Below are positions 34,283-36,503 of a DNA stretch of 38,621 nt, in pieces; the first letter of the stretch is position 1; each line of letters opens with the position of its first letter. The notes beneath the pieces were generated by a model, which did no database searches, had not been told where the DNA came from, and saw only the letters and a list, made by a program, of their open reading frames with translations. The translations under genes and the position numbers were made by a program. Origin of the DNA: Patescibacteria group bacterium (lineage in GTDB: Bacteria > Patescibacteriota > Microgenomatia > 2-02-FULL-39-11); assembly GCA_023379265.1 (NCBI GenBank), contig JAMCUI010000009.1, forward strand, positions 316,908 through 355,528, in the 5' to 3' direction.

Positions 34283-34840
34283 ATGGATAGAAATCTCAAA
34301 TCATATAAGATAGAGGGAATTGTCATCAAAAGGCTGAATTATAGAGAGGCGGATAAATTGGTAACGGTGTTGACTAAAAACCAAGGAAAGATAGTCTTAA
34401 TTGCCAAAGGAATAAGGAAAATAAACAGCCGCCGTGCTCCCCATCTGGAACTTTTTAATGATATATCGGCTTATGTAACTAAAGGAAGAAGTTTTGATAT
34501 CTTGACAGAGGTTCAGACGACACAAGTGCATAAAGAAATTAAGACAGACTTGAATAAAGTAGCATTTGCTTATCGTATTGCTGAGGTAATTGATAGGCTT
34601 TGTCCTGAGAGAGAAGATCATTACCAGATTTATCTACTCTGTCAAAAGACATTGCTTCAACTAAACGGGTCACAAGGCGATAAGCTAAAAAGCTTAGTTG
34701 AAGATTTTATATTGGAGTTACTTATAGAGTTAGGGTATTTACCAAGAGAAAACGTGGTTAAAGGAGAAGAGCTTGATAGGTTTCTTTCCGAAGTGATGGA
34801 GAAGAACCTGAAGAGTGATAGTTTTTTACGAAAGTTGTAA
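34283..34840 (+). CDS. recO: DNA repair protein RecO, short form
   Basis: A 185-residue RecO. The N-terminal OB-fold is clear: YKIEGIVIKRLNYREADKLV, VLTKNQGKIVLIAKGIRK, SRRAPHLELFNDISAYVTKG and DILTEVQTTQ. The following helical domain (AFAYRIAEVIDRLCPERE, FILELLIELGYLP) is also typical. RecO helps RecR and RecA load on single-stranded DNA in the RecF pathway. At 185 residues it is about 50-60 shorter than Escherichia coli RecO and lacks the C-terminal part, including the zinc-finger cysteines seen in many bacterial members. No obvious frameshifted remainder is visible after the stop. Confidence 0.82.
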   Translation: MDRNLKSYKIEGIVIKRLNYREADKLVTVLTKNQGKIVLIAKGIRKINSRRAPHLELFNDISAYVTKGRSFDILTEVQTTQVHKEIKTDLNKVAFAYRIAEVIDRLCPEREDHYQIYLLCQKTLLQLNGSQGDKLKSLVEDFILELLIELGYLPRENVVKGEELDRFLSEVMEKNLKSDSFLRKL

Positions 34841-34999
34841 ACTAACTTTTGTGTTTATGATTTTATCTAAAAAATGCTGATTTCTGGAATGGATAGCTTC
34901 GTGAGGTTGAAAAATAGTCTTTTTGGGGCTTTCGGTATGGACTTTAAGACTAAGTTATAAAGAAGCTCCGGCTTAAAAGACGGCGAGTCTTCACTTCTA
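34841..34999. other. Non-coding stretch between recO and the glyS promoter with inverted repeats
   Basis: No gene is visible. TAGTCTT (34915-34921) and AAGACTA (34946-34952) form a perfect 7-bp inverted repeat with a 24-base loop. AAGAC (34977-34981) and GTCTT (34987-34991) form a second hairpin around GGCGA. The arms are related, so they could pair in alternative ways. No T-tract follows, so neither looks like an intrinsic terminator. Confidence 0.4.
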
Positions 35000-35027
35000 T
35001 TGACAATGCTAGTTGGTTGTTTATAAT
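35000..35027 (+). promoter_or_regulatory. Sigma-70 type promoter for the glyS T-box unit
   Basis: A consensus -35 TTGACA (35000-35005) and a consensus -10 TATAAT (35022-35027) are separated by 16 bases. Initiation would be expected near 35034, just ahead of the T-box Stem I. A second TATAAT at 35031-35036 is too far from the -35 box. This is the best promoter seen in the window. Confidence 0.8.
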
Positions 35028-35115
35028 AGATATAATTAGATTTGCAGTGATGATCCTAAGGGCATAGGTGAGCTGCAGAAATACAAAAAGTGTTCCGATG
35101 AATACTCGGAAAAGA

Positions 35116-35149
35116 AGGGTGGAACCGCGGGTAATTTAAGCTCGTCCCT
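35116..35149 (+). promoter_or_regulatory. T-box antiterminator
   Basis: Helix A1 pairs AGGG (35116-35119) with CCCT (35146-35149). The seven-base bulge TGGAACC (35120-35126) presents TGGA to the tRNA end. Helix A2 pairs GCGGGT (35127-35132) with GCTCGT (35140-35145) using some G-U pairs, closed by the loop AATTTAA. It shares 35141-35149 with the terminator, so the two are mutually exclusive. Confidence 0.85.
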
Positions 35150-35172
35150 AATTATATTAGGACGGGTTTTTT
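35141..35172 (+). terminator. Intrinsic terminator of the glyS T-box
   Basis: CTCGTCCCTA (35141-35150) pairs with TAGGACGGG (35158-35166) with one bulged C and one U-G pair around a seven-base loop, followed directly by six T residues (35167-35172). It lies just ahead of the glyS start and competes with the antiterminator. Confidence 0.88.
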
Positions 35173-35180
35173 ATTTGCTT

Positions 35181-36503
35181 ATGGTACAACTTGAGAAAAT
35201 TGTTAGTCTTTGCAAAAGGAGGGGATTTATTTATCCTGGGAGTGAAATTTATGGAGGGTTGGGCGGAACTTGGGATTATGGACCCTTAGGGGTTTTGTTA
35301 AAGAAGAATATTAAAGATATCTGGTGGAAAGATATGGTGCAACTGCGGGATGATATAGTGGGAATTGATGCGGCAATCATGATGAATCCTCGGGCTTGGG
35401 TAGCTTCGGGACATGTGGAAGCATTTGTTGATCCGTTAGTGGAGTGTAAGATCTGTCATGCAAGGTTTAGGGCTGATAAGGGTGAGGAGATAAAAAAGCA
35501 TGAAGAAGAACATAGTAAAGAAAGTAAGGGAAAAAATATAAATGTGGAGTGGACTGAACCACAAAAATTCAATCTTCTGGTTAAGGCATACTTGGGGGTA
35601 ATAGAGGGGAAGCAGTCAGAAATATATCTGAGGGGAGAAATAACAAATGGAGTACATGTGAATTTCAGGAATATTCTTGATTCTACGAGGGTTAGAATAC
35701 CTTTTGGTATTGCTCAGATAGGAAAAGCTTTCAGAAATGAGATTACGCCCGGCAATTTTACATTCAGATCGAGAGAATTTGAGCAGATGGAGGTACAATT
35801 TTATATAAAACCTGATGAAGAAGAAGGTGAAAAGTGGTTTAATTTTTGGAAAGAAGACAGAATGAATTGGTATCTGAAATTGGGCATGAGAAAGGAGAAT
35901 TTGAGATTTAGAGATCATACGGATAAAGAAAGAGCGCATTATGCCAGAGTAGCTACAGATATTGAATACAATTCACCGTGGGGATGGTCAGAATTTATGG
36001 GTATTCATCATCGCGGAGATTGGGATTTGACCCGACATCAGAAATATAGTGGGCAGGATATGTCATATACAGACCCGTTTTCTGGGGAAAAATTTATTCC
36101 TTGGGATATAGAAACTTCTGCAGGTGTAGATAGGTCCGCCCTTTTTTTCCTTATTGACGCTTATCATGAAGAAAAAGATCGGGTTGTCATGAAAATTCAC
36201 CCAAGGCTTGCTCCTTATAAAGCTGCGGTATTTCCGCTTGTAGCCAACAAACCTGAACTTGTTGATAAAGCCAGGAAAATTTATAATGAGCTTAGAAGTG
36301 AAATGATGATATGCTGGGATGCAAGGGGAAACATAGGTAAAAGATATTTTGCCCAGGATGAAGCTGGTACTCCTTGGTGCATCACTGTAGATTATGATAC
36401 ATTAAAGGATGATACGGTGACTATACGAAACCGCGATACTACTGTACAGGTAAGGGTAAAAATAAGTGATTTATCAGCTGAAATTCAGAAATCTTTAGTT
36501 TAA
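35181..36503 (+). CDS. glyS: Glycyl-tRNA synthetase, single-chain (alpha2) class II type
   Basis: A 440-residue enzyme that charges tRNA-Gly in the cytoplasm. A TTG at 35175 is in frame, but ATG 35181 yields the normal start MVQLEKIVSLCKRRGFIYPG. GGTWDYGPLGVLL (residues 28-40) is the class signature; a C89-x2-C92 pair is a partial zinc-type site. FRNEITPGN and SREFEQMEVQFY form motif 2, and GVDRSALFFLIDAY motif 3. The C-terminal anticodon domain starts at LAPYKAAVFPLVAN. This is the homodimeric archaeal/eukaryotic-like form, not the alpha2-beta2 GlyQS form. It is controlled by the T-box that precedes it. No strong ribosome binding site is seen. Confidence 0.95.
   Translation: MVQLEKIVSLCKRRGFIYPGSEIYGGLGGTWDYGPLGVLLKKNIKDIWWKDMVQLRDDIVGIDAAIMMNPRAWVASGHVEAFVDPLVECKICHARFRADKGEEIKKHEEEHSKESKGKNINVEWTEPQKFNLLVKAYLGVIEGKQSEIYLRGEITNGVHVNFRNILDSTRVRIPFGIAQIGKAFRNEITPGNFTFRSREFEQMEVQFYIKPDEEEGEKWFNFWKEDRMNWYLKLGMRKENLRFRDHTDKERAHYARVATDIEYNSPWGWSEFMGIHHRGDWDLTRHQKYSGQDMSYTDPFSGEKFIPWDIETSAGVDRSALFFLIDAYHEEKDRVVMKIHPRLAPYKAAVFPLVANKPELVDKARKIYNELRSEMMICWDARGNIGKRYFAQDEAGTPWCITVDYDTLKDDTVTIRNRDTTVQVRVKISDLSAEIQKSLV

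Follow-up and report, generated by a model that had tools for sequence, protein, structure and literature searches.

In a genome of the Microgenomatia (CPR), glyS is preceded by a leader at positions 35041-35172 of the window which is very probably a glycine T-box riboswitch that attenuates transcription and is reduced to three elements (the window is the whole 38,621-nucleotide stretch of DNA analysed; all positions refer to it). The host is a tiny uncultivated groundwater-type bacterium. The three elements would be a K-turn hairpin whose terminal loop shows GGC, followed by Stem III and an antiterminator/terminator switch. The anticodon of uncharged tRNA-Gly(GCC) would pair with GGC, and U33 may pair with the next A. 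The free 3' UCCA end of the uncharged tRNA would pair with the UGGA bulge and stabilise the antiterminator, and RNA polymerase would read into glyS. The 3' end of glycyl-tRNA could not insert; then the terminator, as the stabler fold, would form and transcription would stop. We infer tRNA binding, sensing of aminoacylation and termination in the cell from the sequence. The features are:

34283-34840, plus strand: recO, the upstream neighbour (Pfam RecO_N/RecO_C).
35000-35027, plus strand: promoter with -35 TTGACA at 35000-35005, a 16-nt spacer and -10 TATAAT at 35022-35027.
35041-35079, plus strand: ultrashort Stem I, 39 nt (predicted fold; covariation in relatives).
35041-35048 with 35072-35079, plus strand: outer stem of Stem I, 8 bp counting G-U pairs (predicted fold).
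35049-35051, plus strand: 3-nt bulge of the Stem I K-turn, with tandem G-A pairs of 35052-35053 with 35070-35071 (predicted fold).
35055-35057 with 35066-35068, plus strand: inner stem of Stem I, 3 bp (predicted fold).
35058-35065, plus strand: terminal loop of Stem I, 8 nt, AAGGGCAU, with the specifier GGC at 35061-35063, then A.
35088-35113, plus strand: Stem III with the flanks AAGUG and AA (RRRNG-Stem III-AA motif), stem 35093-35098/35106-35111 (fold).
35116-35149, plus strand: T-box sequence and two-helix antiterminator (RF00230 alignment; fold of -9.6 kcal/mol).
35140-35172, plus strand: intrinsic terminator (fold of -13.2 kcal/mol; U-run, U6, at 35167-35172).
35181-36503, plus strand: glyS, the regulated gene, dimeric glycyl-tRNA synthetase, GlyRS (NCBIfam glycine--tRNA ligase NF003211, E 5.9e-174).

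The end of recO and the promoter are separated by a gap of about 160 nt. The promoter, TTGACA-N16-TATAAT, is of the sigma-70 type and matches the consensus at 12/12 positions. Transcription is expected to start near 35034, about 7 nt 5' of the Stem I hairpin. With so perfect a promoter ending at 35027 and a start so close to the hairpin, Stem I cannot extend any further upstream. A preliminary description of this DNA had regarded a Stem I beginning upstream of 35000 as evidence against its reading; the promoter speaks against such a stem. Of 51 related glycine leaders, 34 have a promoter of 10/12 or better just 5' of Stem I, compared with 2.3% in shuffles, and the end of the -10 box is usually 3-15 nt ahead of the first model position.

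The T-box sequence, the antiterminator and the terminator had been recognised in the preliminary description and were confirmed by folding and by Rfam RF00230, which matched 34973-35152 with 42.8 bits (E 2.6e-8). When the aptamer region was folded alone, exactly Stem I, Stem III and the antiterminator were predicted. The RRRNG-Stem III-AA motif has been described (PMC7778990; PMC7583486), and Stem III covaries across 58 distinct leaders. The antiterminator bulge UGGA (35120-35123) is complementary to the UCCA 3' end of tRNA-Gly, with A opposite U73; the genome itself encodes tRNA-Gly(GCC) with U as discriminator. The 3' strand of the antiterminator is at the same time the 5' arm of the terminator, so the two folds are mutually exclusive. 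Folded separately, the terminator (-13.2 kcal/mol) is stabler than the antiterminator (-9.6 kcal/mol), as a default-off T-box requires. A generic terminator scan overlooked this terminator, which was recovered by folding. The predicted hairpin with U6 ends at 35172, the point at which termination had been anticipated. With glyS downstream, a tRNA-Gly(GCC) in the genome and the terminator with U6, the proposed pairing of a glycine specifier with transcription attenuation was upheld.

Control might instead be exerted on translation, by hiding the ribosome-binding site as in actinobacterial ultrashort T-boxes. The literature does tie an ultrashort Stem I to translational control (PMC7583486), and some relatives without a terminator seem to be translational: several glycine leaders could pair the respective strand with the Shine-Dalgarno sequence (L153, L154 and L116, CCCU with AGGA, no U-runs). 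For the window leader this is unlikely. It has a strong hairpin followed by U6, no Shine-Dalgarno sequence is found between the terminator and ATG 35181, and a terminator which overlaps the antiterminator is present in 42/56 glycine relatives. A start codon directly after the terminator U-run and without a Shine-Dalgarno sequence was seen in several CPR T-box leaders (L005, L013, L022, L033).

Transcription attenuation thus remains the preferred reading for the window. Among the glycine leaders one ultrashort Stem I seems to serve both the transcriptional and the translational mode because 42/56 leaders have terminators, several others could hide the Shine-Dalgarno sequence and some loci (L157, L160) have both in series. 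Tandem ultrashort T-boxes were noticed in Microgenomatia (L157 1317-1617; L160 1334-1615; L099 1336-1614; L185 587-879). In the clearest of these, in L157 5' of glyA and in L160 with a LysE-like transporter gene on one side and glyS on the other, the first T-box carries a terminator; the second has no U-run and is able to hide a Shine-Dalgarno sequence. This arrangement suggests two levels of control in series. A canonical glycine T-box with a long Stem I, with an ultrashort glycine T-box directly after it, was observed in genome G002 and at L052 267-562 (also L162).

The ultrashort Stem I with its K-turn was borne out, with the bounds refined from 35043-35077 to 35041-35079. Between the tandem G-A pairs and the inner stem lies a U-U mismatch, which is U-G in most relatives. 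GGC followed by A, as first noticed in the terminal loop, does not change among the 12 closest leaders, in contrast to the base 5' of GGC; this fixes the register of the specifier. The spacing from the specifier to GAG is 6 nt in 33 of 45 leaders and 7 nt in 9. It is likewise 6 in the RF00230 consensus (specifier, aCCcug, GAG). The natural reading is that the leader represents a canonical Stem I which stops at the specifier loop, with the K-turn and the 6-nt spacing retained and the distal part lost.

As first described, a distal arm is missing. The 39-nt Stem I closes in an 8-nt terminal loop, the promoter leaves no space upstream, and neither an elbow-binding arm nor an interdigitated double T-loop is present. 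The stated absence of Stem II was equally confirmed: the 38 nt between the end of Stem I and the T-box hold Stem III alone, without Stem II or a IIA/B pseudoknot.

The canonical glycyl T-box (glyQS/glyQ of Bacillus/Geobacillus; RF00230) and the window leader have in common GGC, the lack of Stem II, the K-turn base, the Stem III motif, an antiterminator/terminator switch 5' of a glycyl-tRNA synthetase gene and the 6-nt spacing from specifier to GAG. In contrast, the window leader has no distal Stem I, no elbow-binding double T-loop and no loop E side of the specifier loop, and its specifier is located in an 8-nt terminal loop. Class II actinobacterial ileS T-boxes (Nocardia farcinica, Mycobacterium) share with it a short K-turn hairpin, a specifier in the terminal loop and the lack of an elbow arm. 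Sherwood's original ultrashort paper of 2015 reportedly also places the specifier in the terminal loop. However, class II T-boxes respond to isoleucine, act on translation and possess an essential Stem II (S-turn) and a IIA/B pseudoknot, whereas the window leader is devoid of Stem II, pseudoknot and Shine-Dalgarno sequestration and ends in a terminator. Of the parallel with actinobacterial ileS drawn at the outset, the part concerning Stem I stands; Stem II and the mode of control differ. In the tryptophan T-box of the same genome (L004, 5' of trpE), too, Stem I is an ultrashort K-turn hairpin and UGG stands in its terminal loop, yet the middle region is longer and includes an F-box-like IIA/B element, which brings this leader closer to the actinobacterial plan. 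The class II model in TBDB was built from Actinobacteria (PMC7778990).

The common plan of Stem I, K-turn plus terminal-loop specifier, would also fit with a class II T-box acquired from Actinobacteria by transfer. We consider this very unlikely. The 38 nt between Stem I and T-box accommodate neither Stem II nor a IIA/B pseudoknot, glycine and threonine are read besides isoleucine, transcription terminators are used, and many CPR genomes contain such leaders.

A default Rfam scan of the window reported nothing because the score of 42.8 bits is below the RF00230 gathering score of 93, which is an annotation cut-off and not a structural definition. This match was the outcome of the comparison with RF00230 proposed earlier. 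The genome contains five T-boxes, all below the gathering score, and 15/15 genomes of the family hold RF00230 matches. Standard RNA models under-score ultrashort leaders. In the window the RF00230 alignment threads a long Stem I onto upstream non-structure (34973-35040) and treats the real hairpin as an insertion. Taken at face value, the short hairpin would be only a part of a canonical long Stem I which starts upstream; this is hardly credible since 34973-35040 is the promoter region, the alignment there is gap-ridden and the promoters of relatives are at the same distance from Stem I.

The short hairpin as a complete Stem I is supported by covariation, the lack of which had been named as an argument against it. 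Of the pair cells in seven glycine relatives 97.6% are paired, with a covariation of 0.873 compared with 0.306 after shuffling (0/500); slid controls gave at most 0.206. The seven were chosen by loop motif among leaders found by RF00230 whose hairpin sits in the RF00230 insert. The selection was therefore mild but not nil: the loop motif was used, though RF00230 had ignored the hairpin. Adding five named GTDB records, for which the search pattern had pre-fixed pyrimidine/purine at the loop-closing pair, gave 0.635 compared with 0.222 for shuffled alignments (12 sequences; 0/500). For the whole model, 58 distinct glycine-type leaders scored 0.642 compared with 0.194 (shuffled, 0/500), a value which leans towards structure because the alignment was fitted to the covariance model. 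The leader is real and probably functional, as far as sequence can tell.

The search of CPR genomes with a covariance model, suggested in the preliminary description, was carried out with a model from 12 leaders. It found leaders in 80/380 CPR genomes and in 109/374 genomes of the class, counts which include some leaders that are neither glycine-specific nor ultrashort. Glycine leaders on the ultrashort plan number more than 40 in CPR genomes, mostly with terminators. A strict-rule K-turn descriptor overlooked some true leaders. A pattern scan across GTDB had 12 matches, of which ten were real. All ten were from CPR, mostly Ca. Gottesmanbacteria, and also Collierbacteria, other Microgenomates and Dojkabacteria. 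The host, initially surmised to be a CPR bacterium, is assigned there by its kinship with these records. Occurrence beyond CPR was covered by this strict pattern, and rarer forms may occur there. The matches in Syntrophomonas (L062) and Bernardetiaceae (L066) were due to chance, without T-box leader context or terminator.

Wels et al. listed T-boxes only in Firmicutes, Actinobacteria, Chloroflexi, Deinococcus/Thermus and two Proteobacteria (PMC2494555; for the known T-box context see also PMC10651847). Searches of the open-access literature on CPR T-boxes and ultrashort Stem I found no paper on T-boxes in CPR. To this extent the claim that the combination is undescribed holds, provisionally. 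Provisionally, too, what is new is a transcriptional T-box without both known tRNA-stabilising modules, i.e. elbow arm and Stem II; the T-box class itself is known. Such a natural RNA makes the minimal need for tRNA sensing testable with RNAs of 85-130 nt and challenges the view that a T-box needs a long arm to grip the tRNA. It also suggests that genes in CPR, a group with few studies on regulation, are controlled in response to amino acids. Possibly, CPR use a third, minimal T-box, serving several amino acids and both modes, in which tRNA would be read only at the anticodon and the 3' end, without elbow clamp or Stem II. Such a T-box might be a simple, early state and not the product of reduction.

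In its own genome the window leader has a counterpart, a second glycine leader 5' of glyA (serine hydroxymethyltransferase, SHMT), in which the stem differs but the loop is identical: GGC AAU GA U GGC AAGGGCAU GCC G GA GCC. Leaders for tryptophan, alanine and serine in this genome carry UGGC, UGGU and UGGC, respectively, matching the tRNA discriminators G, A and G. Threonine leaders 5' of thrS have a 9-nt terminal loop with ACC (L109, L120, L177, L180, L186, L189, L221); in seven sequences covariation of the loop-closing stem is strong, 1.107 compared with 0.286. Tryptophan leaders 5' of trpE appear to have UGG in the terminal loop. By inspection, leaders for isoleucine (AUC), serine (UCC), alanine (GCC) and proline (CCC, 5' of proB) appear to share the terminal-loop specifier. 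The idea that a protein of the L7Ae/YbxF type or another factor binds the K-turn, and that tRNA does not read the attenuator via GGC, has the presence of a K-turn in its favour but is scarcely tenable, as the specifier tracks the downstream gene (glycine GGC, threonine ACC, tryptophan UGG), the last base of UGGN tracks the discriminator, and conservation extends to the T-box bulge and the Stem III motif. The ultrashort T-box is a lineage-wide architecture in CPR with several amino-acid specificities and not a single oddity; in this respect the preliminary description understated its generality.

Some further leaders are of note. L026, L027 and L037 are probable proline T-boxes with the loop UUUCCCGC; L026 is located 5' of proB (glutamate 5-kinase). 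In the genome of the window, a serine T-box precedes the gene of a fusion protein (L005 1718-3220) which joins phosphoglycerate dehydrogenase and a SerB-like phosphatase domain. Two glycine leaders, L150 1501-1585 and L165 250-338, seemingly dispense with Stem III as well. L150 is the smallest, with 85 nt from Stem I to the end of the antiterminator.
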